Positions 7,780 through 61,800 of a DNA stretch of 64,000 nt are shown in pieces. Within the stretch, counting starts at the first letter, position 1. The number at the start of each line of letters is the position of its first letter. The notes beneath the pieces are model-generated. The model saw only the letters and a program-made list of their open reading frames with translations, did not search any database and was not told the DNA's origin. The stretch is from Bugulina stolonifera (Eukaryota; Bryozoa; Gymnolaemata; Cheilostomatida; Bugulidae): assembly GCA_935421135.1 (NCBI GenBank), contig OW285187.1, forward strand, positions 21,638,429 to 21,702,428, in the 5' to 3' direction. Made by a program: the position numbers and the translations under genes.

Positions 7780-8289
7780 TCATGTGTCTTGGCTCGTATA
7801 TACTCGGGCAGTGTTGCAGTTGATGGAACATCTGTGGGTAGTCAGGAAGGGCATGCCAAGCAAGCTGTCATCGGGTAGGCTGCTGATCAGGAAGAGAGTC
7901 TCACAGGAGGTTTGCCCGATGTGGATGGGCAATTGAACCATTCCTTCAAACTTCATCGTTGATCCGTCGGCCAGCTTACCATACGGCTGATGTACCGGTA
8001 GCACCTCTAGGTTGGGTAGTTGGAGTCTCTGGAGGGTTCCAGGAGAAATCAGGTTAGTGGTGCATAATGTGTCCAGGAGCATTCTGACCGATTGTCCGCC
8101 TATTTGTCCATGGAGGTACATGCTGAGCACATGTGGTTTCCTGTACGTTGTTAGAGTCACTGCTGGGATAGTGTTGGTGGTGTCGGCAGCATCCTCGGGT
8201 TGTCCTTCCAAGATGGCAACTGTATGTGAGTGAGGATGTTGATGGGCCCGAGATCCAGCCTCTACTGTCTCGGGCCTGGGCCATTTCCC
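7780..8289 (-). CDS. Retropepsin-like aspartic protease frame, active-site variant
   Basis: Entered by -1 frameshift from gag, the frame runs to a TGA at 7780-7782. The fold cues of a retropepsin are present: a strand around LHGQIGGQSVRMLLD, the loop LLDTLCTTNLIS, a flap-like segment (YGKLADGSTMKFEG) and the second conserved segment SLLGMPFLTTHRCSINC. The catalytic triad normally D-T/S-G reads D-T-L here (8065-8073), so activity is doubtful. In life this enzyme would cut the Gag-Pol precursor. The same frame continues past the TGA for 136 codons, suggesting that the stop is a later mutation rather than the natural end. Confidence 0.7.
   Translation of the reverse strand, partial: GKWPRPETVEAGSRAHQHPHSHTVAILEGQPEDAADTTNTIPAVTLTTYRKPHVLSMYLHGQIGGQSVRMLLDTLCTTNLISPGTLQRLQLPNLEVLPVHQPYGKLADGSTMKFEGMVQLPIHIGQTSCETLFLISSLPDDSLLGMPFLTTHRCSINCNTARVYTSQDT
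8245..8289 (-). promoter_or_regulatory. -1 programmed ribosomal frameshift signal (gag to PR)
   Basis: In the gag frame the minus strand reads G GGA AAT at 8289-8283, an X XXY YYZ heptamer. It is followed by a 6-nt spacer (GGCCCA, 8282-8277) and a perfect 9-bp stem, GGCCCGAGA (8276-8268) with TCTCGGGCC (8253-8245), around a 14-nt loop that contains the gag stop codon. The protease frame is the -1 frame and is open from the heptamer onward. Confidence 0.8.
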
Positions 8290-9128
8290 GGATTATGTTC
8301 ATGGTGCTCTGACTCCTTGGCTGGAGTAGGATTAGTCCTACTGTAGTTCTGAGGAAGCATGGGTCGTCCAGGTTTCTTTCCAGATTGCCAGGGAGGTCTT
8401 GCCTTGAATCCTGGGGCTGGAGAGTTCTGTATGAGTCCACGAAGCTGTTTAACCTCTTCACTGAGGCTGCGGATCGCCTCCTCGAGGTCATCCACCCATG
8501 TTGGGCTAGTGTCTACTTGACTAATGTGATTAGGCTCTGACTCTGGTTCTGCGACGACTCTAATGTTGTGTGTTCTTCCTCTATGAGAAGGTCCTTTGAC
8601 CAGCAGAAAATCATTGCCTGCTCTGACGGCTGCGTCGACATCTCTGGGATTGATCGCCAGTAGATGCCTCTGGAGTTGTCCGTCTTCTAGGGAATTGCTG
8701 AAGTTTTCAACGGCTAGGATTCGGCGCTGTGCATCGGGTACCTCAGGAAAAGATATGTTGACCAACCTCTGTATGATAGTGGCATGTTCTTGGAGAGAGA
8801 TTCCGGACCCCTCAAGTTGTCCTAGTTGGAGTCGGGCCTCCTTGGCCGTTAGTCCGAACCTGGCACGAAGGGCTTCAAAGATGCCTTCGGTTGTGCCGGG
8901 TCGGCCACACTCTTGGGCAGTGCCCTTGAGAGCTTCTCTTAGGTGTAGGTAGGTCGAGGCAGGGTTCCAGTCGTTAGCTTCTGCTACGGTCAGGAATTGC
9001 TCAATGAAGTATTCGACGTTGCCTTGACTGTCGAACTGAGGAGTCTTGAAGGAAGCCTGGGGAGGAGGTGGCCGAGCTTCGACCAAAAACCTCCCGAGGA
9101 CTTCTGCAAGACGATCGATGTCTGCCAT
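8262..9128 (-). CDS. gag: Retroelement Gag (capsid-like) protein
   Basis: The frame encodes 288 residues from the ATG at 9128 (MADIDRLAEVLGRFLVEARP) to a TAG at 8262-8264. It remains open upstream to 9212, but that part is MITE sequence. The body is mostly helical, with the Ty3/gypsy-style capsid features FDSQGNVEYFIEQFL, WNPASTYLHLREAL and QLEGSGISLQEHATIIQRL, then a basic, Pro/Gly/Asn-rich tail. There is no CCHC zinc knuckle, and the single cysteine (QECGRPG) is isolated. Gag would package the element RNA. The last codons carry a -1 slippery site that passes ribosomes into the protease frame. A hAT-type MITE lies 33 bp upstream of the ATG, in the leader. No stop or frameshift interrupts the frame. 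Confidence 0.85.
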   Translation of the reverse strand: MADIDRLAEVLGRFLVEARPPPPQASFKTPQFDSQGNVEYFIEQFLTVAEANDWNPASTYLHLREALKGTAQECGRPGTTEGIFEALRARFGLTAKEARLQLGQLEGSGISLQEHATIIQRLVNISFPEVPDAQRRILAVENFSNSLEDGQLQRHLLAINPRDVDAAVRAGNDFLLVKGPSHRGRTHNIRVVAEPESEPNHISQVDTSPTWVDDLEEAIRSLSEEVKQLRGLIQNSPAPGFKARPPWQSGKKPGRPMLPQNYSRTNPTPAKESEHHEHNPGNGPGPRQ

Positions 9129-9161
9129 CTTCAGTCTGGATGAGGAGGATGTAGTCGTCTG

Positions 9162-9892
9162 TAGAGGTGGAACGAGACAGCATTTTTGGATTCGAGACGA
9201 GATTCGAGACACTACTTCTAAAAAATTCGAGACGAGACTGGGTTTTAGGATTCAAGGGAATTTTCCTAAAAAGTTTGCCAAATTTTACACATCTACATGT
9301 TGGAACTCCAATAGTTTCAATTGCTACTCTGTAAACTCGGTATTTTATCAGTATGCATTTCAATAAAAGGTGAACAGGAGGCTGTGAAATATATTGCACA
9401 TGTATTCCATGTACATTGTACCATTATACTCCTTGATTGTACATGTACATTACATTGCATGTAATTTGACAAGTTAGTATGGAGTTATGTTTCCTTTAAT
9501 GAAATAATCTCACGAGTAGGCAACTTTTGGCAAGAACATCACATTGCATTATGGGAGTGGTGATTGACAGTCGCTAGTAATTCTGTATGACTTGTAGTGA
9601 TTGACTGGTAGCTCAGCGTTAGCTGCAATGCTATTACTAGGAAATCAGTGCTGGGAATGTACATGTAGGTAGTATTACTAAATAATTTGAGTAACAATTT
9701 TCTATTTTATAGATTTATTGTTGATTAGCAATTAATTGCATTATAATTATTAATTTATTATTATTATATATGAAAATTTTTAGCTGCTATTTGTTTTCCA
9801 GTCTCGAATACTAATTGCCATATCGAGACGACTTTCGAGACAAGACAAGTCGATACGAGACTCGAGAAATCTCGAGTCTCGTTCCACCTCTA
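9162..9892. mobile_element. hAT-type MITE nested in the retroelement leader
   Basis: Identical 17-bp terminal inverted repeats TAGAGGTGGAACGAGAC (9162-9178 and 9876-9892) are flanked by the 8-bp target duplication GTCGTCTG (9154-9161 and 9893-9900). Many CGAGAC-type subterminal repeats occur near both ends, as in hAT elements. The interior is AT-rich and non-coding. It inserted after the LTR element and sits between the primer-binding site and the gag start. Confidence 0.93.
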
Positions 9893-14300: not shown

Positions 14301-15463
14301 GAACAAGTCATCTGGATATCTAAAGTTGTACCCAATCCACAAGGTGTGACCTGCTATAGAAGTAAATATATCCTTGTGACTGGTGCAGGCAGTCAAACTA
14401 CTGTCTGGATTCTGGATATGAAAACAGGTTCGTAGAACAATTAAATATTTAGATTTCTGATTGATTAGCTTACAGCTGAGCTGAGTGCTTCTTTTGTCAC
14501 TTGTACCCATTTCTCACTGGCATTGGTAATTGTAATTTGCAATTAAAATTGTAGGCCTACTTATAATCTACTTTGTGATTTTTCCTACTCATACTTGTAC
14601 TTAAACTTGTACCTGCCCTAAATGTGGAAAATCTCTTGTACTTGTACTTCCCAGTGTAGGATTTGGTACTTTACTTGTACTTGGCTCAGTTATTAGAACA
14701 ACAGCACTGGCAACTAAAGTCAAAGTGTCATTCAATGCAGAGGGCACACATGTTGTCACCATACTTGCCAAGGAGCAACAGCAAAAAGTCAGAACAACTC
14801 TGGTCCTGTCTGCTCAAACTCCCTGGACAAGTACCATCATTCCTTGACATAGTTTAGGTGTATATTATTTGAATAAAACTCATCTCTAAAAAGTATCAAT
14901 TATTCATTTTAGTACTGCATTGTATTTAGTGTCTTTCCTAGTACTTTCGTCAATGTACATGTAAATGGGAGTATTTTAGGAATGTGTCTGGTGTTTTGTG
15001 AAGTTTGGTAACATTTGTGACATAGATAAAAAGCCAGGATGGCTGGAAAATTCGTTGGGACAGACAGAAAAACAGGGGGTGTTCTGACAGAATCTGGACA
15101 CTGGGCAAGTTTGGTGCTCATCTGTACTTATTTCACAACCTGTAATACAACCTGTATGGGAGATTCTTAATAAGCAGATTGTCAGCTGTCTGGTGAGGTG
15201 TAAGCACTACAAGATACTCCTCTATGGCTACCTTACTATAATATATAGGGCTTGGCCAATGCTGTTTTCTCATCCCACTACCTGATGATAGTAAAATGTT
15301 GCTGGTAAATCTTTCACTTGTTGCTACAGGTACACTGGTATTCAAGCTAGCTGATACTACAGTCAGAGAGAGCAGCAATGTTTACGACATACATATCTCT
15401 GGTGATGCACTGATTGTTCCAAGATTCAACAATGAGAAGGTTCTGTTCTATCAGATTAAATAA
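11343..15463 (+). CDS. TRIM-like protein: B-box, coiled coil, NHL-type propeller
   Basis: Five exons join in phase: 11343-11519, 11878-12048, 13117-13225, 13708-14427, 15330-15463, giving about 436 residues if the ATG at 11343 is the start. Exon 1 carries a B-box-like zinc site (CDVCIKRG...YCTLCHKLFCVKHEE). Exons 2-3 encode a charged coiled coil (LKYETLETEFLANRR, MKIEAQLRQSH). Exons 4-5 encode repeated beta-strand units of a C-terminal propeller (GCPSVCMYKGKTYVGLDGG, CVTVYNDLMYALVYD, YILVTGAGSQTTVWILD) ending VLFYQIK. This is the TRIM layout without a RING, so ubiquitin-ligase activity is not shown; a RING exon could lie upstream of the retroelement. A fair acceptor just inside exon 1 (ATTGTAG near 11362) means the ATG is not certain. 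The TAA stop at 15461 is also the first base of a satellite array. Confidence 0.82.
12984..13102. mobile_element. 119-bp hAT-type MITE in intron 2 of the TRIM-like gene
   Basis: Terminal inverted repeats CAGTGCTCAAAGTGTA are flanked by the 8-bp direct repeat TTTGTTAC (12976-12983 and 13103-13110). The right-hand duplication forms the pyrimidine tract immediately before the acceptor ATACAG at 13116. Confidence 0.92.
13331..13396 (+). ncRNA. Hammerhead-like motif next to a 40-bp palindrome
   Basis: 13331-13370 is a near-perfect palindrome (CATCATCAGAGGAAAAATAA and its complement, one mismatch). Overlapping it, CTGATGA (13367-13373) is followed by one extra T, a 7-bp stem GATGCTT/AAGCATC with loop GGGC, and GAAA (13393-13396). 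This resembles the hammerhead ribozyme core found in Penelope-like and other retroelements, but the extra base breaks the strict consensus and I could not define stems I and III. A diverged second copy lies at 36611-36640. Confidence 0.3.
14698..14847 (+). other. Orphan coding-like frame in TRIM-like intron 4
   Basis: Fifty codons to a TGA, following an AG (TTATTAG at 14696). The peptide has the alternating pattern of beta strands (ALATKVKVSFNAEGTHVVTI then KVRTTLVLSAQTPW), unlike the surrounding low-complexity sequence. It may be an alternative or decayed terminal exon. It matches no exon of the host gene in an obvious way. Confidence 0.3.
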
Positions 15464-17116
15464 TCAGGTATATTATCTGTATATTCTAGTAATCAGGTAT
15501 ATTATCTGTATATTCTAGTAATCAGGTATATTATCTGTATACTCTAGTAATCAGGTATATTATCTGTATACTCTAGTAATCAGGTATATTATCTGTATAT
15601 TCTAGTAATCAGGTATATTATCTGTATATTCTAGTAATCAGGTATATTATCTGTATATTCTAGTAATCAGGTATATTATCTGTGTACTCTAGTAATCAGG
15701 TATATTATCTGTATACTCTAGTAATCAGGTATATTATCTGTATATTCTAGTAATCAGGTATATTATCTGTATATTCTAGTAATCAGGTATATCATCTGTA
15801 TATTCTAGTAATCAGGTATATTATCTGTGTACTCTAGTAATCAGGTATATTATCTGTATACTCTAGTAATCAGGTATATTATCTGTATATTCTAGTAATC
15901 AGGTATATTATCTGTATATTCTAGTAATCAGGTATTTTATCTGTATACTCTAGTAATCAGGTATATTATCTGTATACTCTAGTAATCAGGTATATTATCT
16001 GTATACTCTAGTAATCAGGTATATTATCTGTATATTCTAGTAATCAGGTATATTATCTGTATACTCTAGTAATCAGGTATATTATCTGTATACTCTAGTA
16101 ATCAGGTGTATTATCTGTATACTCTAGTAATCAGGTATATTATCTGTATATTCTAGTAGTCAGGTATATTATCTGTATATTCTAGTAATCAGGTATATTC
16201 TAGTATATTCTAGTAATCAGGTATATTATCTGTATATTCTAGTAATCAGGTATATTATATGTATGCTCTAGTAATCAGGTATATTATCTGTATATTCTAG
16301 TAATCAGGTATATTATCTGTGTACTCTAGTAATCAGGTATATTATCTGTATACTCTAGTAATCAGGCATATTATCTGTATACTCTAGTAATCAGGTATAT
16401 TATCTGTGTACTCTAGTAATCAGGTGTATTATCTGTATACTCTAGTAATCAGGTATATTATCTGTATATTCTAGTAGTCAGGTATATTATCTGTATATTC
16501 TAGTAATCAGGTATATTCTAGTATATTCTAGTAATCAGGTATATTATCTGTATATTCTAGTAATCAGGTATATTATATGTATGCTCTAGTAATCAGGTAT
16601 ATTATCTGTATACTCTAGTAATCAGGTATATTATCTGTATATTCTAGTAATCAGGTATATTATCTGTATATTCTAGTAATCAGGTATATTATCTGTATAT
16701 TCTAGTAATCAGGTATATTATCTGTATATTCTAGTAATCAGGTATATTATCTGTATACTCTAGTAATCAGGTATATTATCTGTATATTCTAGTAATCAGG
16801 TATATTATCTGTATACTCTAGTAATCAGGTATATTATCTGTATACTCTAGTAATCAGGTATATTATCTGTATATTCTAGTAATCAGGTATATTATCTGTA
16901 TACTCTAGTAATCAGGTATATTATCTGTATATTCTAGTAATCAGGTATATTATCTGTATACTCTAGTAATCAGGTATATTATCTGTATATTCTAGTAATC
17001 AGGTATATTATCTGTACATTCTAGTAATCAGGTATATTATCTGTATATTCTAGTAATCAGGTATATTATCTGTATACTCTAGTAATCAGGTGTATTATCT
17101 GTATATTCTAGTAATA
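15461..17116. repeat. 29-bp satellite array B (about 57 copies)
   Basis: Same monomer family as array A, starting at TAATCAGG, which overlaps the stop codon of the TRIM-like gene. A 28-bp hybrid monomer (GTATATTCTAGTATATTCTAG) occurs at 16193 and 16511, with variants GTAGTCAGG (16153/16471), CAGGTGTATT (16101/16419) and TATGCTC (16261/16579) repeated at the same 318-bp distance. So an 11-monomer block is duplicated. It ends in TATATTCTAGTAATATTTT, the same monomer phase as the end of array A. Confidence 0.97.
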
Positions 17117-17987
17117 TTTTGCACCATATTTTAGGACTGGAAATATGCATAGATGAGGCCATGTGAGCAGCTCACGCTGTACACATCAACAAACAGGTGC
17201 ACATAACCTGCCAATATTGAATAGTCAAGACATATCCTGTTTCCTTTGAGAGTTGCCCACTCTCTAACTGTAGCGCTAGTATTGAATGTATATTGTGGTT
17301 CATTGGCCTATTCCACTTGCATTTGTGTTGATACCACCATTACATGATTGTCTATTATCCATATTGTTACCCAAATTACTGTTATGGTTAGTATATTTCC
17401 AATAGTGAGGAGTCTTGCATTGCTATTATCACTTGGTTTTATTTTACAACTGAAGCGTCTTATTGTGAGTTCAAAGCCATCATATTCAGTTTTTTCTTTC
17501 TCTCAGTATTAAAATAAACAATGTTGAAACAGAATGGTCATGATGTGATTGAAGGCTGCAGTAAATTATACATCCATCCATGTTGGCAAATGGCTTTACA
17601 GCCGCCTTTACTGTAGGTTGTTGCAACTAGAACACTGATTAGTACAACTCTGAGAGGACAACTTCTTGTTAGGGTCATATGATTATGGGTGCCTGCCCAT
17701 GCTTTTTGAGCCCATAATGGAATCAAATAATATGATGTCCACCGGCTACAATCTACCAACATGTATCTGTACTAGTGGAGCAAATTCTATGGTTCCATAG
17801 TACATATAATTCAAATTTCATCCACATGGAAGCAATGCTTTATTGTTTGTACTGATTCTGCTGTAGCGTATGTCAGCTATTAGAGTACCTTATTTAGCTA
17901 CTATATAACATGTAGTTCATTAATACAAATTTAAAGCATTTTGATGTTGTTATCAGGAAATGATTTGTTTGCTTGTAAATTCTATAG
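17117..17987. other. Intergenic, nothing recognised
   Basis: AT-rich sequence between the satellite and the Ly6-type gene. No open frame with splice context, no repeat structure and no RNA gene seen on either strand. A promoter or first exon (signal peptide) of the next gene is expected here but I could not place it. Confidence 0.4.
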
Positions 17988-19997
17988 ATGCATGTGTGAC
18001 ATCAATGAGACTGGAAACCAATAGTCTCTTAGCACAGTTATTACCAGTTGACACCTACTACACCATTACCTATAATATAATGTGTGTGTATAATAATATA
18101 TACCTTTGTATTATTATTTATGTTATAACACATTCTACTATGGGATATAATAATATCGCATGCATACCTGCTAGGATACTTACTACACAAAAATCAATAC
18201 AGGGAGCTTTGAAAATGCACATTTGACAGTGGAGATGAGATTGGATGAGAGTAGCTACTGCAAGAGCTTTATCTGCCAATATGAGACTAACACTCCAGTC
18301 AACAGCTTTAGTGGTACTACTTGTACAAGGTATGTGATATATGACGTGGTACTAGTGTACATAGTACTTGTACAAGGTATGTGATATATGACGTGGTACC
18401 AGTGTACATAGTACTTGTACAAGGTATGTGATATATGACGTGGTACTAGTGTACATAGTACTTGTACAAGGTATGTGATATATGACGTGGTACTAGTGTA
18501 CATAGTACTTGTACAAGGTATGTGATATATTGTACTAGTGTACATAGTACTTGTACAAGGTATGTGATATATGACGTGGTACTAGTGTACATAGTACTTG
18601 TACAAGGTATGTGATATATGACGTGCTACTAGTGTACATAGTACTTGTACAAGGTATGTGATATATGACGTGGTACTAGTGTACATAGTGCTTGTACAAG
18701 GTATGTGATATATGTGGTACTAGTGTACATAGTACTTGTACAAGGTATGTGATATGTGGTACTGGTGTGTGCAATAATTGGTGAATTCCAAAATGTGAGA
18801 AATCTAGCTTGGCAGTTGGTTTCCTCAGTTTCGAAAACCTTCGTCTGCCATTTGGAAAGCAATCTTTTATCATCAAGTTAATTCAGTAAGGTTATAGTCA
18901 CATAATATTATGCTACATATCACATGCTTTCCAGGTTTTATTTTACCTGTTGGCTGCTATTAACACAAGTACATCTACATGTACATGTACCTGCATGCAA
19001 ACTCCATTTGAACATTTTACCAAAATATGTAATCTATTTATTTATGTGTGTGCACTGAAACTAACAACCTGTGTCTTGACTAAAGGGTTTTTGCTGGAAA
19101 CTGTTGGAGGAATAGAAACAGGAGAAAATTTGACCTGCTATCACTGCAAGGATGATTTCAAACACATATATGTACATAATACACCTTGTCAGAGAAACCT
19201 GTCACAAGTTGACATTAGACCATGTGGTGCTAGTGACAACTATTGCAAGGTTAGTAAATGTAACAGAGGGCTGGCGGCCTACTTGTAGGGGGTCTTGTAC
19301 AGTATAGTAAGTGTGCATTTTGTACATGTGCAGCACAGTAGATGTTACATTAGAAATTATAACACCAGTATAGATAACAATGGACTCAATGACAGTCCTG
19401 TAATCACTTCAGTAATCCTTCAGTAATCTGTGATGGTGTCCAATATCTGATCCATACTATAAATTTACATGTTCGTTTTTCTTATTTTCAACCCAAATTT
19501 TTGTGTACTGAATCCCTTATTTTAAGAAGGAAATTTTACTCCTATCATACATACACTATATGATAAGGCTACCATACACAACGGAATTGATTGGATTTAT
19601 TACTTTCCATATTAAAAGTATCCAAGTAGGTTATGGATGATGTAGCACATGTCCATTATATTATTGATTTTCTAAGTCGGTTTATTTGAATTTATGTGAT
19701 ATAGGCCTACAAGTCAAACTGCTGGAATTATTTTGCATGACACTATTTTATACTTTTACATTGCAGACCACACGAGTAGAGAAGAAAGGGTTGACTGTCT
19801 CCTTAGAGAGATCCTGTGCAGGAGAATGTGACTATGGGTGTCGAAATGACAAGTTTGGGTTGACCACCCTGACATGTACGTCATGCTGTCAAGAGAAGGA
19901 ATGTAATACTGACAGCAGTGCAGAGCATCTCACCGCCTCTTATGTCATGGCTGTGTTACTTATTCTCATTAATACCATCTTCCAGCCATATCGATAG
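17988..19997 (+). CDS. Ly6/uPAR-type (LU domain) GPI-anchored protein, 5' end missing
   Basis: The two last exons are firm: 19086-19249 and 19767-19997. They give one three-finger domain starting LTCYHCKDDFKH, with CQRN, RPCGASDNYC, CAGECDYGCRND and the hallmark LTCTSCCQEKECN. A hydrophobic C-terminus follows (ASYVMAVLLILINTIF), as in GPI-anchored Ly6 proteins. Two upstream exons are likely: 17988-18083 (MRLETNSLLAQLLPVDTYY) and 18230-18329 (DESSYCKSFICQYETN...TTCT). They join each other in phase if the donor is at 18084. The second ends on a 5' splice site that is the first of ten tandem copies. Using copy 1 gives the wrong phase for the LU exon; using copy 2 (exon end 18376) gives the right one. 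A signal-peptide exon was not found. The protein probably sits on the outer cell surface; ligand unknown. Confidence 0.72.
18306..18765 (+). repeat. 47-bp minisatellite carrying ten copies of a 5' splice site
   Basis: TTGTACAAG|GTATGTGATAT occurs at 18321, 18368, 18415, 18462, 18509, 18551, 18598, 18645, 18692 and 18736. The spacing is 47 bp except for two units of 42 and 44. Copy 1 is the junction of exon 18230-18329 with its intron, so the array was seeded on an exon end. Each copy keeps a strong AAG|GTATGT donor. Confidence 0.95.
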
Positions 19998-20798
19998 CTT
20001 GTTAGTACCTTTAGGTGTCAGTGACCAATGACATGTGAGAGAATTGTGACGAAGAGTTTACAACATGTAATGTGCATCATTTATAGAGAAATTTATATTA
20101 GGTAATACAATATTGTGTATTTATTTAAATGTGCTGGTTACATTACATAGAAGAGTCTGTAATACCTTATATATACGAGTATATTTTATGTAGATTCAAA
20201 TACAAGTAAATGTGTGATGAATAAAGGGCTGACAAATTGGTTTCATACAATTTTCATGAGTTTGGTAGGGATTTACGTAGCCTGTTCTGAACCTCCCAAT
20301 ATAGTAAAATTACATAATATAATCCAACAGCATTCATTCAGCACTATAGTTACCACGGAGAATGTTGCATCAACTACTACCAGTATGTTGTTCAAGGTGT
20401 AGGTTCATTTTATATACATTCATGTACATGGAATTGTTAGACTTGTTCAGCTTTACGCTCTCTATATTATGCAGAAGAACTAAACAGAAGGGCACCAGAG
20501 GAAAGAGTAATGTATATGGTTCAGTGAATGATGGCAACACTTGTATATTCAACAAAGAATTGCATAAATATTATATATGGCTACAAGTCATGTACATGTA
20601 CATATAACAGAATGATATAGATATGATATTTTGGAACATGTTGGCCATGAACATTGCTCAAACAAACCACCTTTTTATGTTTATATGTCCAACTGTCTGC
20701 TTTCAGTATGACAATGTATGGCATCACCATAGCCTATAGCGTTAGATCACAGCTCTTATCTAACAGAGAGGATATCATGTCAATAGTTTTCTAACATA
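19998..20798. other. 3' flank of the Ly6-type gene and convergent spacer
   Basis: AATAAA at 20220-20225 is a likely polyadenylation signal for the Ly6-type gene, 223 bp after its stop. The rest is AT-rich spacer up to the 3' end of the minus-strand LRR gene. No other feature seen. Confidence 0.5.
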
Positions 20799-22272
20799 CT
20801 ATTTCTGTAGATTTTTACCACTCGGTGACTTATCTTCCTTGTAAGAATTACTTTGATGAAGGCTTAGAAACTTGTCAATTGCTTCAGGTCCCTGCTTAGC
20901 TACAGATAGAGGGGGGTACTCTAGAGGGTTCCCATCAAGAGCAGATGTCAGCATTAGATGAGACCAGTCTAGGTTTATGAGTTTACCCAAACCTCTGGGC
21001 AAAGCTGTTAAACAATTTCCACACAACCAGAGCATCTGCAGAGTCTTGAGATTGCAGATTGATTCAGGTAGACTCTGGATTTTATTGTAGGATAAGACTA
21101 GGCTTTCTAAACTATCCATTGATCCTATATCTACAAATATAACAATCTAAGGCTATAAGACAATGTTAGGATAAAATATAAATCACAGGTTTGCTCAGTT
21201 ACATGATTGTATTTCTATGTCTATGTCTATGTCTATGTCTATGTCTATGTCTATGTCTATGTCTATGTCTATGTCTATGTCTATGTCTATGTCTATGTCT
21301 ATGTCTATGTCTATGTCTATGTTACTTCTCAGCCTCGGAACCAAAAATACTAGTATTGGTAATACTATGGCTTGGAATTAAATATTATGCAAAATACATT
21401 ATGTTTTCTTGTCGCTTCGAAATTAGTCAGTGACCTGCGTTCCATTATTACTAAATGTACACTCGTCTCAACTCGGGGTTGGAACAAGGTATGATTATGT
21501 GAATGGCAGTTGGATATATGCCTACAATGCCTACATGCTCGTACATGTATGTATTTGGCAGCATAACAAGTTAACAACAAATCTTGGTTATATTAAAAAC
21601 CTATTTACTTCTACATTGTATAGCGTTCACAGAACAAGTAGTAAGATATAACAGAAGATAAATATACTGAACTGAGTGAATAATAAACATACCAGTAGGC
21701 AAATCGGTCAGGAAGTTGTCTGAGAAGTCTAGAAAAGCTAATGTCTTTAGTTGACAAACTCCAGCAGGGAGATGGTCAAACTTGTTATTAGAACAATATA
21801 GACTGCGTAGATTATGGAGATGGGGCAGAGCTGCCGGAAGGTCAGTCAGCTGATTATTACTAAGTGCTAAACGTTCTAACGAATACAAGTGACACAGTTC
21901 TTCTGGTAAACTTTCCAACTTGTTTGTATCAAGAGCTAATATAGTTAGATTGCTCAACTTGGCTATTTCCACTGGTATAGTCACCAGATGGTAGAACAAG
22001 CAGGCCTCTCGTTCAGGACTTAGATCTAAAACCTGCAGTTCCGTCAAGTTGAATAAGGAAGGTGGAAGATTAGAGAGTTCTTTCCCACTAAGTTTAATTT
22101 TCTTCATCCCTCGATATAATGGATCATCACAAGTGATTCGCATCCTCAGCTGTCTTGTAGATAATACAGTTTGCTTTGGCTGCAGTTTCCTATCCGTGGT
22201 TGCCATGCTACCTTCCTTCGCTGACAGTATCAAGCCTTCTGCGGATGATTTTAACACATTGTCGGTAATCAT
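20799..22272 (-). CDS. Leucine-rich-repeat protein, SHOC2-like repeats
   Basis: Two exons, 22272-21693 and 21130-20799, join in phase (codon GAT split 1/2) and encode about 303 residues. The start is the ATG at 22272 (MITDNVLKSSAEGLILS). After a basic N-terminal segment come about seven 23-residue leucine-rich repeats of the LxxLxLxxNxLxxLP type (KIKLSGKELSNLPPSLFNL, LALDTNKLESLPEEL, LALSNNQLTDLPAAL, LDFSDNFLTDLPTDIG, LVLSYNKIQSLPESIC). A closing unit LDGNPLEYPPLSVAKQG and a polar tail follow. It has no signal peptide or membrane segment, so it is an intracellular scaffold. The repeat class is that of SHOC2, ERBIN and LRRC proteins, but the exact orthologue is not clear. The 562-bp intron holds a hexanucleotide array. 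Confidence 0.87.
21214..21321. repeat. Hexanucleotide microsatellite (CTATGT)n
   Basis: About 18 uninterrupted copies inside the single intron of the LRR gene. The repeat is open in one frame (repeating Leu-Cys), which produces a false coding frame. Confidence 0.97.
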
Positions 22273-23409
22273 TTCAACAAACACGGTGTCTGTTATTCAA
22301 ATGTAATATTAGTTAAATTTAAATCGTTAGATTTTATTGATCAGACAATTTTTTCCAAAGAAATTGACTGAACTATTCACCACGATGATGGAGATTGAGC
22401 AATTCTTAAATGTACGAATTAAACATGAGTAATACTTGGTGTTTAGAAAATATCCTCTTAGTGATGGAGTATACACAAACCTAATTAGTTTGCTAAACAA
22501 ATGTTTAATTCGCTGTAAGTGTTGGACTAAGGATTACATTTCGTCAAGGTGTTAGACGACAGTTTATGGAGTACCTGCTATCACATTGACCTCTAGACTA
22601 TTCTATATTACATAGAGATCTCATTACAAGATAATGATTCATGTTTTTCTACCTCCCATGTTCTTCGCCAAACAATTTTCCAATTTTGACCTTTAAAAGT
22701 GAAATTTTAAGATAATTAAAAAACTTACCTGAAAATTTTAGTTTACTTAATTTACTTGATGTTCTACTGTTCTGCTTCCATTCTCTAATGAAAGACTGAT
22801 GCCTTGTAGTATATAAGTAGTAGAGAGACTGAAGCTGATCAAAGAGTATCCGTATCTCAAGAGTGAAACTTTGATCAATTGAGCAAAATGTTTCAACTAT
22901 TTAAATGCTTCAACGATCGATAATAAAGGCTTAAAATCCATCGAATATTTTATTACTATGCACACATTTGGTTTTTCTATTATGACTTGCGCTACAATAA
23001 CGGCATTGATTAAACAAAAATCATGCCCTGATCACATATTCAATTATTTCAGGTGTTAAGAATGATAGAGTTACCCAACAACACAACAAATGAAACATAC
23101 CTCTACCTAACATTAGTCACTGATGTGTACATTGCACTTAATCTAGTCAACAAAAACAATGACTTTGCTTACAATAGTATTTATTGAAATCACCAAAAAT
23201 ATAATATTAATAGTATATTCACATGAAAGGTAATTGAACCTGTACAGGGGAAACAAGTAAAAAGTTTATATCATAGAACAAAACCATTACATTAGGTAAT
23301 AATAAATAATAATAGTATAATACTGTACAACGGCGAAGTAGACTAACTTGTTTAGTGTTGTATAGGTACACTCAGTGGGTATATTAGCACACTCATGTTC
23401 TTAGTCCCT
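22273..23409. other. Spacer between LRR gene promoter and FRA10AC1 3' end
   Basis: AT-rich, no coding signal on either strand. It should contain the promoter of the LRR gene (next to 22272) and the 3' untranslated region of FRA10AC1 (next to 23410). No repeat or RNA gene seen. Confidence 0.4.
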
Positions 23410-26400
23410 TTACACCAACAACTCTTCGATAATATCCGTGATTTGTGGTACCCTGTAATAAATCAAGACTAGTTAGTCAATGCTTCACTTAGGAAAGGAT
23501 GACAGGCATCTATACACTTATGGTGAAATAAATCAATATAGTACAGTGATACTGGTTCACAAGTCGTTATTCTTCAGTTATTGGAGGTGTGGGTACAATC
23601 CGAATGGCCAGTGAAGGTGTGCACATACAATGCGAGTGGTCAGTAGAGCCACCATTGTAGAGGTCACATACACAAAATTTTATCTTAAAATGTTTAGATG
23701 GGAGAGGCACTGTTGGCGCTAGGTCTAATAACTAACTACAGTTTTCTTACAATAAATTATATCTCATCAGTGTTTACCCCCCCCCCTCCCCGCACGTCAT
23801 TCAAAGGTGATAAAATAAGCACTAAGCTAGACCAAGTTCAGAGAGGAGATAATCCGAGCATATTATATTACCAAAACGTCGGAGGTGGAAGTAAAGTATC
23901 AGGAAACCCATTTATTGGATAAAGAATTTTTAAAATCAAGGAATAGGGACCACTTTGGGTCAACCAACAAGCAGGTTTAAGATTTACCTACCACTTTAAG
24001 ATGCTACCACTTGAATAAGCTATGTGTAACATGGTACACTACTACCACTCTAGCAAACTCTTTATAACACCTTATTTCCAGTTATACACTATTGTAGATT
24101 CTTAGTACTTGGAGAGAGTTGGCTGAGATATAAAGGTAGATGTTGTGGACTGGAGATATAATATTGGGAAATATACATAGAGGAGTAGATAACTAAGTAT
24201 TACATAACGACTTGATGAGTTGTACACTGACTAGTGTGATGAAAGAGGCAGCAGTTCCATGTACATATTGATTTACCTGGCTATACATGTATATTGTAGT
24301 AGTGGGATGAGAGACATGGGATGATTATTCAGTATAGTGTATTATAGTAAGTATATACAGCTTTTGTAGGGCTATAAGAAATGTTGTTTTATAATAATAT
24401 TGTATTATTTAGAGCTTTGACTTGAACTCATTGGCTACCTAGACATAATGTACCTACTAATGGTCTATGGATGGGAGATATTGATTGGGTGATACCTTAC
24501 TGACAACACATTCTGATTGGCTATATTTGAACACAATGACCACACCAAAGAGAGTAAAAGGAAAGAGGGATCTCTCCAGTCAAAAACTGTCAAGATTACC
24601 GATCAAGTATGGAGTTGTGCTACCTTGTGCACAAATCCACTGGGACTAAATTACTAGGACCAATAAGAAGCCAAATTGGGCTTATTGAGCTTATTTAGTG
24701 TCAGCAGGCTGACTTACCAGTGTTAGTTAGTTGCCTCATCAAGGGTGTTAGGAAAATTAGAAACAAACACAACTACTTGTGTCGCTAAATTTTGAGGCCT
24801 ACTGCTACCAACGGGAGGTGATATATATAAAAGGACGGGAAACTGATTTCCTTGAACATACAGTACAGTGAACATGTTATAAAAAAGCACAGGCTCACCT
24901 TTTGCTTTTGTCCCTCTCTTTACCTTTAGACTTTGATGTAGAAGTTTCACCGTCTAAAAGAACAAGCGAGCACATTATCCTACAGCCTTGGATTAAAAAC
25001 TCCATTAAAGCAAAATTTCAAACATGGATGTGACCCTATCCTACATTTCAGTGTCCCCTGAAGCATGTGTTGATTGCTATCCACATGTTACTGGTTGGGT
25101 TGAAGTCAACAGACATACAGGTAAGTTCAATCAGCAAATAGATTATATGGACTCTCCATACCTCGTCCCTCGTCCCCTTTGGACAGCATGGAAACCAGGC
25201 CAAATCTAACACTTTCCGATATATCAGTACAACACTATTGGTAAAACCAATATTTCATCTCATTTCATTATTATTGGTTTTCAATAATAATATAATGATT
25301 ATAAACATGTACTATGTTTGACAATATATAACATGTACTTGTATACTACCCTAAAAGCAGATACATTTTGCGAGTTTTAACTTTTGCGAATTTCGCGAGT
25401 GACTCACTTGCAAATAATTTCTATCGCTATTAATATCTGCTTTCAAACTGATTTAAATAATTTCTGGTTTAAACAGACCATACATGCAGCTATATAGCTA
25501 TATGATACATAGTTGAATATTTTACAAAGCAGCAAGTATTTGCCGTAACATAATTGGTAAGTAGCCTAGAGTAGGAGCTTAATCAGAGGATTTTTTAACA
25601 AGCTATGGTAATTACTTTACCTCACAGGTGGGCTTACTGCACTATATAGGAGTCAGTTGTAGTTTTGTACTGTATGTAAGTGGGGTTTAAATCTGAGTAA
25701 ACATAGAGCTTAGCTAAGCTTGGTTTTAATGCTGAAATATGCTTAAACATCAATTTTGGGACTTAAACAAATTTCGCGATAGGCCAAACTCGCTAAATAT
25801 TTCTATCACAAATTGCTCCAGGATTAGCAAACTCGCGAAACTTTCTTCCGCCGAAATATTTCTGCTTTTAGGGTATACACTTTACCTAGATGGTATAACA
25901 AGTGGTAGTTACCTTTGTGTTTATCACTATCATGTCGAGTTTTAGGTTCTCTGGTTATTTCACGTCTTTTATGAGAGTAATTCAGTTTATCTGAACACTT
26001 TGGACACAGCCCTGTAATCCAAGCACATCATATATTATGTCTATTTTACTATATCAACATAAAGTAACTAGACGATGTGCACAATGTACAGGTTGTATAG
26101 CTTATTGAATGTAAACATTACATTGGTGTGATGTGTTATGAGGTTTGTGTGTTGGGGAAGTGGATTCTAACACTGAAATCTCTTAGCATTGGATAGCATT
26201 GGATAGCATTGGATAGCATTGGATAGCATTGGATAGCATTGGATAGCATTGGATAGCATTGGATAGCATTGGATAGCATTGGATAGCATTGGATAGCATT
26301 GGATAGCATTGGATAGCATTGGATAGCATTGGATAGCATTGTTACATGCATTCATAGAGCCAATACACTAATACTCATGTCACAGTAGTTAGGAACAGGC

Positions 26401-55446: not shown

Positions 55447-57045
55447 GAACATGTTTGGAAAACACTGCTAGGCCTCCAAGTCTCCAGTGTTAATCAGATG
55501 AATGGACAGGAGAGACCCCATTCCTTAGCACCTTCTACTATACCCTCTACCGAGAATGGGGCACCTGCAAGCAGTGCCAGCAGTCGTAATAACTCATGGG
55601 TTAGAGATATGGTAACTAATCCGCTACAATCCGCACAGTTTGCTCTACAAAACTCTCGCAGAGATAATCTGAACTCTTCGGTCCCTCATTTCGATCCTTC
55701 TTCGTCAGCTCATCCTCGGCAACCTTTCCCAACAATTCCATTAAATTTCCAGCACCTATACAATGGATCCATGTCATCACTGGGTGCAATGATGCCTCCA
55801 ATGCAGCTAAGTACAGGTGACGAGGCTAATAATGCCACGTTATCTACAAACTCTACCCGTTTACTTGTTCCAGTTATGGCCACAACCTCTAGTAGCAACT
55901 TGGCGGGTCAACCGGTAACCCACCAGACAAGAACTCAAATTCTTGATCACTCTGCTGAAACTGATACTCCTGTTAAGAGATTAAAACCTGCGACAGCAAT
56001 GGATGCTAGCTCTAACTCAGCATCAGTTAGCCAGCATTACACTGCTAACAGTACACCTATCCCTCACAGACCAGAGTATTTCCATCAAGGCTCTGTTATC
56101 CAACTATCAGAGAACAGGCTGAAGAGAATAGAGGACTTGCAGACTAGTGACTTTGAGATGAGTGCTAGGCTTAGTCCCAATCTGAGTTTAGACTGTAGTA
56201 CAGTTACAAAGATCTCTGAGGATCCCATGAGAGGAACGGCATTCTTAACTTTCAGTGTCGGAAATCTCAAGCATAATCCGGTAAGTGTGTTAACATTAAT
56301 GCTAACTTTTTGTGTAGGAATAATAGCACTAATAGTGTTAATAATTTCAGCTTTTTGCAATTTGGTGTTTGATAGAAAGTACATGTATGCCATTTCTTGT
56401 GTAGCCTTCACTGGAGCAGTTAGGCCTATGTCCGACTGGTTATAAATATACTGGCTAAGGTATGACCAGCCATTCCTTCTCATAACAATATTGTGCACTG
56501 TAGGTTTAAGTCTATATAAAATATGCTGGGTCAATGCAGACGGCACCCTGATCTTTATTTTACTACAAGAAATGTGTAGGTCTAAATAGCCTGTGGAATT
56601 AAGTTTAAATGTGGCTTTTCTAACCCTCTCTGCATAGCAGCATATTGGAGACTTACTGAGATCTAGTACATAGTAATGATTGGACCAACATCTCTGATTA
56701 TTATATATCTTGGTATATCCCGCTGTTGAAAATTTTCTTACACCTTCTCTCTGAAAGCAAACAGTTTGCCTTCATGCTCACTCTGTCAATGTGTTACTAT
56801 GTTTATTTATATCTTAGGTTGATGCAACTGTTGAGGCCACTCTGGAACATCCGTTTTTCGTTTTCGATCAAGGATGGTCTTCGGTGAGTCCAGAGAGAAC
56901 TCTAATTTACTATAAGATGAAGTGTCACAAACTCAAAGTATATGATAGATGTATATCTATTACCTTCAAAGATAGACTACCAAGTAGTACAGCAGGATTA
57001 TCCCAAGCTAATAGCAACCACACTGCAGCAACAACTTCCTCCTAG
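55447..57045 (+). CDS. ATXN1: Ataxin-1-like AXH-domain protein
   Basis: Exons 55447-56280 and 56818-57045. From the ATG at 55498 the product is about 336 residues, but the frame is open back to the acceptor at 55446, so further N-terminal sequence is possible. The first 190 residues are Ser/Asn/Thr-rich and disordered, with a basic patch PVKRLKP. The AXH domain spans roughly residues 205-315: YFHQGSVIQLSENRLKRIED, EMSARLSPNLSLDCSTVTKI, TAFLTFSVGNLKHNP, then across the intron VDATVEATLEHPFFVFDQGW, SSVSPERT and CHKLKVYDRCISITFK. AXH mediates RNA binding and contacts with transcriptional repressors in ataxin-1. There is no polyglutamine tract. It is shorter than vertebrate ATXN1 and nearer ATXN1L in plan; orthology within that pair cannot be set. 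Confidence 0.93.
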
Positions 57046-58853: not shown

Positions 58854-61800
58854 ATGGCCACTAAACAGACAAAAATAAGCAGCTCATCAAGCTTTGCTGA
58901 AAAAGGGTCTCCTGCCCCAGACTCAACTAAACTTCGGAGTGCATCTCCACGAGTTAGCAGGTTACAGGAAAAGAAAGAGGAGCTTACTGGTTTGAATGAC
59001 AGACTAGCAGCTTATATTGACCACATTAGGTCTCTTGAAACTGAAAATCAAAAATTGCATCTTCAAATACAGACATTTGAAGAAACTAGTCAAAGAGAGG
59101 TGTCTAATGTAAAAGAATTGTATGAAAGAGAGTTGGCAGCTGCTAGAAAATTGATTGACGATCTATCGAAAGAAAACGCACAACTAACAGTAAATGTAGG
59201 AACTTATAAATCAGAAGCTGAAGAGTGGATGCGAAAGTAAGTTAGTGTTGATAGTTTGATCCTAATAGTAGCTAAACTGCACTGTTAGTGTTTTAAGCAA
59301 AACTTCCTTCGTTTTCGTATTATAGTATTATATTTATTTGGGGCATGGGCTAGGCTACTACCAGATAGGTCTAGGTGCAGTACTACAACTATAAACTTCT
59401 TGTTGGTTGTCAGGTTACCTAAAGTTGAATAAAGAAAGCAGCATCTTCAGCTTCAATTTTAACAAAGAACAAAGGCCATCTCATTTAAAATTTCTGTTCA
59501 GTCTTGCACCTTCGGTACCTCGCTACTACAGTTATCTACAATGAACATCAGCGATCTAGTGAATGCTGGCATTTGTGCATTTCCACTAGTAGTTAATTTT
59601 AGCTGACAGTCTCATGACAATCAAATCAATCTGAATTTTTGATTTTGTTTTAATTTAAATTTGGGCTAGACCTACAAAGTGTACATGTAGTAGACTGCTC
59701 AACAAGGCACAGGTCCACCTTGTCCTACGAGTGCATATGCCTGCATGTAGCCTAATGTTATACCAATACCCATGTATGGGCAACAAATTCAATTCAACGG
59801 GTGGAGGGTGGTGAAATCAGGATCAGAGGTGTCAACATACATGTATAGTGCATGGGCCTATAATAGATGAGACTTCCGAAGTTAAAAATTATTGCATCTA
59901 TGTCCAACAGTTGGGACTTTCTGTAAAATTGTCAGCACCTTACAGTCCAATGCATGTCCATGGTAGCACAACTCCTGATAGAAGTGTTGCCACATTGCAT
60001 TTATTGAATGGGAATTCTGTGTTATGGATCAATGAAACCAATCAATATAATAAACAATGGGCAGGTCTGTGAATCCATTCCGACGCTGTTATATCATATT
60101 GTATCAGGTATTCACTGAGAGACAGGGAGGTATCTGCCTTGCAGAAGAAAAATGCTGATGCCGATGGTAAAATTGCAGACCTTGAAGCTAAGCTCGCCGC
60201 AGCCTTAAGAGAAAATGAAAATTCCAAACAACAATACCAGGTAATGCATTTATTATATTATTTCTATACCAGATGTTTTAATTGTAGTAATATAAACAGT
60301 GCTTGAATGTGTAAAGTGTGAACTGATCTAAGTTATATGCAATAAAGGCTCACAGGAAACCAGCACTGAATGGGGTGTAATTTGAACAGTATATTTTGAT
60401 TTCAGTAATTGAATGAAAAGTAAAATAATGTGATCAATATAGTAGACCTAGTCCCCTTGAACAATGTCATTATACCAATATCAGATCAATGCAAGCCATT
60501 ATTGAATCCTATGCAGTATTTTGCACTGATAGTAAAAATGGTAACACTCCTTGCATTCCATTTGACTGATTACATTGTTCTCTATTATCAATACACAATA
60601 CATTGACTATTTATTTACTCTTTGTCTAGAAGGTGCTGAATGCATAACATTTTAGTCTGCATATGACATTTTCTCCTTTCATTTGGAGCCGGCTGTCCCA
60701 CAGTTCTCCATGTAAAATTAATTTTTTTAACTTAATTGAAGTTTTATTAACTTTTGATTAATTTTATTAACTTTTGGATTTGCTATCATGTATTTGAAAA
60801 AATCTCGGGTAAGTGAGTGTAATTATGTGTTTTATATTGTGTTAACTTTGTAGTGCATAGAGCGTGACAGTTGAAACGGTAAAATGAAAGCGAACTAGGT
60901 GTATAATTTATTAATATATTTCTTTATTCTGTTAATTATTGATTTGATTCTTTGTTTCATTTTTTTTATCATGGCCTATGATTGCTATACCTCATGTCGA
61001 AAAATCAGAGAAAAGTAATTCTGAAACACCATAATTGAAATGTTTCTGGATTCTAGTCGTCAGTCTATTATCGATAGAGTGAATGTAGCACAGCTTGAAA
61101 TTCGCTGCAGTTGCTACTCGCTAATAAGTCTACCACATTATGTTGTGCTGCTTACTATCATGTTTTATACTAAACACATGTGTAGTCCTACATGTACATA
61201 TTGTGTCTACACGAATTGTAGTCTCTTTGCCAAAGTCAAAGCACTGCTATTTACACCATATCCTGTTCCATATCCAGAAACGTTCACCTTGAGTTAATAC
61301 ATAGAGTTTCTTCATTAAACTTTATAGTTTTTAGTCAGTATCCTCTGCTTTAGGGCCTAGCAGCCATTTTACTTTTAGGCCTAAATTTTAGGCACAGGCT
61401 AACTTGCTCAAAAATTTTCTGGCCCACTTCTATCACAGGATCGCGAACACACCGACCAGGGCCAAAAGCAAAATCCTCATTTTCGTGAGAGAAACCTAGG
61501 TTTCTCCAACCAAGCAAAATCCCAGGTCTGTTGCCCTTTTGACCTAAGCCGGACAGGACGGCCATCTTGGGATTTTTATAATTTGCTACCCAGGTCGGTC
61601 CAAGAGGTCCCGAAAACACTATTTATCTTGAAAATTTGGGAAACACTCTCGTACCTTTTTATTGTATAACCATTGTAATTGAGGAAGCTGGCCTGGTGTG
61701 CTATGCGATTAAATTTTGCCGTAAAGCCTCGGGCTCAAGTCCTCGTCAGGAATGGGTTATCTTCACAGATGTAGAACCAAATTTTTTGTTGCCTATAAAT

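Follow-up and report, generated by a model that had tools for sequence, protein, structure and literature searches.

The presence of ten copies of the same 5′ splice site in tandem, within a stretch of the Bugulina stolonifera genome of 64,000 nucleotides (the window), raises the question of which copy would be productive, and whether the multiplication of the site serves the gene or is simply tolerated by it. The sites lie on the forward strand at the predicted edge between the first exon and the first intron of a gene that can be assigned to the Ly6/uPAR (LU) family by its pattern of LU cysteines and by homology.

Joining 18281-18329, 19086-19249 and 19767-19997 gives a protein of 147 residues with a hydrophobic N-terminus, the LU cysteines and a hydrophobic tail. 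The coding part of exon 1 (18281..18329) would extend from the likely ATG to the donor of copy 1, encode a signal peptide and end in phase 1. Translation and homology assign the first half of the LU domain to exon 2 (19086..19249) and its second half, together with the hydrophobic tail and the stop codon, to the coding part of exon 3 (19767..19997), all on the forward strand. The inferred intron 1 (18330..19085, 756 bp) contains the array and has ACTAAC at 19060 and the acceptor AG at 19084-19085, the inferred intron 2 (19250..19766) begins at a donor in which AAG is followed by GTTAGT, and a candidate polyadenylation signal, AATAAA, is located at 20220..20225 on the same strand. The junctions were placed from frame, homology and splice motifs rather than from transcripts, and on these grounds the original prediction was apparently correct in setting copy 1 at the exon 1/intron 1 junction. 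The signal peptide and the hydrophobic tail were called by hydropathy, and the GPI-anchor region is a candidate on the same basis. An intermediate exon appears unnecessary, since copy 1 would join 19086 in frame and ACTAAC precedes the acceptor. Intron 1 has acceptors richer in pyrimidines than that at 19085 (11 of 20 positions), namely 18934 (14) and 18828, 18859 and 18886 (13 each); an intermediate exon entered through the 18934 acceptor was rejected, as joining it to copy 1 leads, by eye, to a TAA after nine codons.

A single-sequence search with the protein found one homologue, EB796_001426 of Bugula neritina (UniRef name LYPD6), at 55% identity and 83% query coverage. A profile built from three rows, one of which is an alternative product of the same gene, retrieved 11 proteins, including those from Watersipora, Patella, Lingula, Mytilus, Elysia, Penaeus and Biomphalaria. 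When the assembly was searched in six frames with the protein, both matches obtained belonged to the gene itself (exons 2 and 3). The Pfam family Toxin_TOLIP (PF00087) matched below its cut-off, at 17.6 versus 21.2 bits, and comparison of P0001 with solved structures by sequence returned Lynx1 alone, at an E value of 0.13. A structure model from three rows was poor (pLDDT 38.9). The model of the Bugula neritina homologue, which stands in here for the window's own protein, reached a pLDDT of 79.7, and Lynx1 was its best match in the PDB (E 2.2e-4) and the sole one at or below 0.001. GPIHBP1, C4.4A, Lypd6b and Lypd6 came next, and the further matches included TGF-beta receptor ectodomains and snake three-finger toxins. 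We take all of these to be three-finger folds, which supports this fold for the homologue. At the protein level, at which the relatives were compared, the LYPD6-like genes of Bugula neritina, Watersipora, Patella, Lingula and Mytilus likewise have a short signal-peptide N-terminus, TSCCQ...CNTD-like LU cysteines and mostly a hydrophobic tail. A typical Ly6 gene, as outlined in a passage of PMC4839075, carries its signal peptide in the first of three exons and the GPI-anchor region in the third, a layout that the present three-exon model with its signal peptide in exon 1 fits.

The array itself is clearly delimited. Exact copies of CTTGTACAAG followed by GTATGTG occur ten times within 18320-18751 on the forward strand, and Tandem Repeats Finder reports a minisatellite at 18318-18755 with a 47-bp consensus unit, 9.5 copies and 95% matches, an overlapping 183-bp row and a 13-bp sub-row being the same array. 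The claimed tandem of ten donors is thereby borne out. The last exonic base would be at 18329, 18376, 18423, 18470, 18517, 18559, 18606, 18653, 18700 or 18744, with the GT of copy 1 at 18330..18331 and those of copies 2-10 (18377..18746) starting at 18377, 18424, 18471, 18518, 18560, 18607, 18654, 18701 and 18745. The 47-bp unit that had been attributed to every copy is found in seven of the nine donor spacings, the other two being 42 and 44 bp. Among the nine full units, units 1, 3, 4 and 6 are identical, three have one substitution and two have a short deletion; unit 10 is incomplete. The array is also unique in sequence: all ten occurrences of the 17-mer CTTGTACAAGGTATGTG in the 235-Mb assembly are inside it, with none on the reverse strand and none for the reversed control, and a two-unit probe matched only this locus in a search from which simple repeats and very frequent words are excluded. 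The first 12 bp of the array (TACTTGTACAAG) are the end of exon 1, and the aligned units share this 12-bp tail. Homology between exon 1 and the unit beyond that tail (GTGGTAC occurs in both) was considered and dropped as not significant, scores as high being reached by 1030 of 20000 shuffles and by 503 of the 5367 37-mers taken from the window. The predicted pairing energy with U1 is -7.6 kcal/mol for each donor of the array versus -8.3 kcal/mol for the donor of intron 2, and 86 of 4247 forward-strand GT sites outside the array pair as well or better; these values are estimates of pairing energy and not trained splice scores.

Which copy would be productive depends on the start codon. Every ATG from 18200 on was combined with every donor, and full LU products arose only when copy 1 was paired with ATG 18281 or 18245 and when copy 2 was paired with ATG 18235, copies 3-10 giving a full LU product from none of the ATGs tried; a separate survey of the ATGs in 18100-18330 agrees. 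From ATG 18281, copy 1 leaves one base to which exon 2 adds two, and the frame stays open across the junction. With each of copies 2-10 the same start is read as ...LLVQGM, and a TGA follows after codon 18. The base at -3 is A for ATG 18281, G for 18235 and T for 18245, and a stop in frame with ATG 18281 lies upstream at 18236. The N-termini were compared with those of the eight of 11 homologues in which this part is apparently whole, P0007, P0009 and P0010 being omitted as partial or fragmentary. The first LU cysteine is preceded by 27-39 residues in seven of the eight, the shrimp protein having 78, and the most hydrophobic stretch starts at residue 6-14 in all eight. For ATG 18281 with copy 1 the corresponding values are 33 residues and residue 7, and for ATG 18245 with copy 1 they are 45 residues and residue 19. 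ATG 18281 is thus the likely start, and copy 1 is taken as the likely productive donor because of its frame and of an N-terminal length like that of seven of the eight relatives. The translations confirm the earlier statement that the frame varies with the copy chosen; a switch between productive forms is nevertheless unlikely, because from the likely start one donor would be productive and nine truncating.

These features are probably best explained by a minisatellite that expanded over the first exon/intron edge of a LYPD6-like Ly6/uPAR gene and multiplied its donor tenfold, with copy 1 remaining productive and the array being tolerated. The expansion would have copied a genuine 5′ splice site along, and U1 snRNP should be able to bind every copy. 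Copy 1 would yield the protein, perhaps being preferred as the nearest to the cap in a first exon, and transcripts spliced from copies 2-10, halted after codon 18, would be wasted or probably degraded. The array is most likely tolerated and not selected, and might at most lower the output somewhat, depending on its length. Among duplicated identical donors the intron-proximal copy is reported to be preferred; copy 1 would then be poorly placed and the array costly, and this counts against the explanation. Cap-enhanced recruitment of U1 is discussed in part of PMC4889658, and according to a passage of PMC5585400, which of several neighbouring donors is used depends on site strength as well as on an SR protein. 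About seven changes fall in the units, none of them in the donor core of any of the ten copies; the chance of this is 0.016 for a 21-base core, which was picked post hoc, versus 0.23 for the nine-base donor, and the constancy is evidence neither for nor against selection on the donors.

Compared with its dinucleotide shuffles, the segment 18281-18800 forms a more stable fold (z -3.36, with none of 100 as stable), but a special RNA structure of the array was rejected, since 79 of 150 arrays built from ten shuffled units equal or exceed ten perfect units in stability; the strong folding is due to the tandem repetition. Copy 1 is the most accessible of the ten donors with a folding window of 150 nt but not with one of 400 nt, and no inference was drawn from this. 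A search of 17000-21000 against Rfam gave nothing at the gathering score.

Arrays in which each unit holds a donor-like word are common in the genome. In 264 kb, made up of twenty 10-kb stretches and the window, there are 29 arrays with a period of at least 15 and at least four copies. Donor-grade sites number ten in the 9.5 copies of the studied array, eight in 5.8 and five in 5.3 copies of two others, and six in the 16.9 copies of a further one, and the remaining 25 arrays have none, one or two. Assembly-wide, three AGGTATGT words spaced by 26-56 were found 552 times on the forward and 557 times on the reverse strand versus 87 and 119 times for the reversed pattern, an about fivefold excess (1109 versus 206) in matches that overlap heavily within arrays and are dominated by long ones. 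Among the matches listed, on the window's contig up to 21.66 Mb, at least 17 separate AGGTATGT arrays were present, the studied one being the last, and the single word occurs 15 times versus six for the reversed word in 263.5 kb. The Bugulina stolonifera genome thus frequently generates tandem donor words, and with arrays this dense and donor-word arrays this frequent, the meeting of one of them with an exon edge needs no special cause. Seeding of repeats at splice donors may occur genome-wide, a bias that the counts neither show nor exclude. What appears to distinguish the present array is the coincidence of its first unit with the end of exon 1.

Several other features were noted in the window. 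Two long arrays at 1-1903 and 15461-17115 share a 29-bp unit in like orientation, 13.6 kb apart, and between them on the reverse strand are a retroelement-like ORF with an aspartyl protease (PF13975) at 7780-8211 and a neighbouring one at 8262-9212 that has no Pfam match and is gag-like by eye. A perfect 10-bp repeat of TAGCATTGGA (26184-26341, 15.8 copies, 100% matches) and a 6-bp repeat of TATGTC (21210-21322, 18.8 copies, 99%) suggest very recent expansion. Further ORFs encode leucine-rich repeats (21601-22284, reverse strand), an AXH (ataxin-1/HBP1) module (55498-56445, forward strand) and the start of an intermediate-filament protein, lamin-like by eye (58854-59240, forward strand).

A regulatory role of the array is possible, in which splicing would act as a rheostat: usage would be spread over the ten donors, one productive and nine poison, and a length-polymorphic array would set the output of the LU protein for each allele. 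The equal predicted U1 pairing at all ten donors agrees with this, as does the unproductive outcome of copies 2-10 from ATG 18281, and the several identical full units fit recent expansion or homogenisation. Such identity is, however, expected equally from a neutral minisatellite, and the rheostat is on balance unlikely.

A still less likely reading, and one that we rate as very doubtful, starts from ATG 18235 (18235..18237, forward strand), an upstream ATG in another frame and the sole start that puts copy 2 in phase. Splicing from copy 2 would then give a protein of 178 residues with a longer N-terminus, and copies 1 and 2 would form a frame switch. The earlier reader evidently worked in this frame: the claim that copy 1 is out of phase and copy 2 in phase is correct only from ATG 18235 and fails from 18281 or 18245, where copy 1 is in phase, and the placing of copy 3 beyond a TGA is right in the same reading. 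The frame is open, the base at -3 is G and the repeat would contribute a hydrophobic stretch (hydropathy 3.53), but the product, in which 64 residues precede the first LU cysteine and the hydrophobic stretch starts at residue 38, is unlike seven of the eight relatives, and nothing in the Bugula neritina protein corresponds to its extra residues. Finally, stepwise (recursive) splicing, in which the units would themselves be removed and late choices corrected to the copy 1 junction, is highly improbable: the full units do run from GT to AG over 42-47 nt, eight of nine contain a branch-like TACTAG (a raw count, uncontrolled for chance) and tandem AGGT duplication is a known source of introns according to part of PMC4974935, but an earlier AG (CATAG, for example at 18364) lies between TACTAG and the end of the unit, which also lacks a pyrimidine tract (10 of 20), itself a weak discriminator given that the accepted site at 19085 reaches no more than 11.

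Taken as a tolerated minisatellite at an exon edge, the feature is a further example of a donor minisatellite, for which human IFI6 provides a direct precedent. The human IFI6 minisatellite with its multiple splice donors was reportedly described by Turri, Cuin and Porter in 1995, and its unit is said to be of 12 bp and to keep the frame. The Bugulina unit differs in being mostly 47 bp long, and from ATG 18281 copy 2 meets a stop; extra units that keep the frame, a trait attributed to IFI6 and perhaps not a defining one, are not found here, where a TGA follows codon 18. As in IFI6, each tandem unit carries a donor-like site and the first appears to lie at the exon edge, but in IFI6 several donors are reported to be in use, whereas those of the Bugulina array are predicted donors. 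In human IFI6 (G1P3, 6-16), two downstream repeat units also serve as donors and give three mRNA species, as described in a portion of PMC4526556, and the work on this minisatellite is also cited in a passage of PMC3618361. Tandem duplication of AGGT-containing segments was put forward as a source of introns by Rogers in 1989, as cited in PMC4974935, the same excerpt of which mentions 24-bp tandem AGGT repeats in fission yeast genes. The present array resembles such duplications as a tandem repeat bearing AG/GT with units that extend from GT to AG, and differs from them in having presumably arisen at an existing exon/intron edge and in lying within the intron. In the open-access literature, judged by titles and the starts of abstracts, no bryozoan case of a donor-bearing repeat was found, which is weak evidence of absence.

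With ten identical donors in a first intron, one of which would be productive from the likely start, the array is a natural setting in which to test how the spliceosome selects among them. An RNA-seq run (ERR10123683) and an alternate-haplotype assembly (GCA_935421085.1) exist for Bugulina stolonifera, as mentioned in a section of PMC10213821, and donor use should therefore be resolvable without new sampling. If only copy 1 is used, a strong positional preference among equal sites would follow, and if several donors are used, the length of the array would be a simple heritable dial on the output of the gene. Should the rheostat prove true, how much of a surface LU protein a colonial animal makes would be set by the copy number of each allele, and the array would be one of a class of donor-seeded minisatellites that tune genes across a repeat-rich genome.
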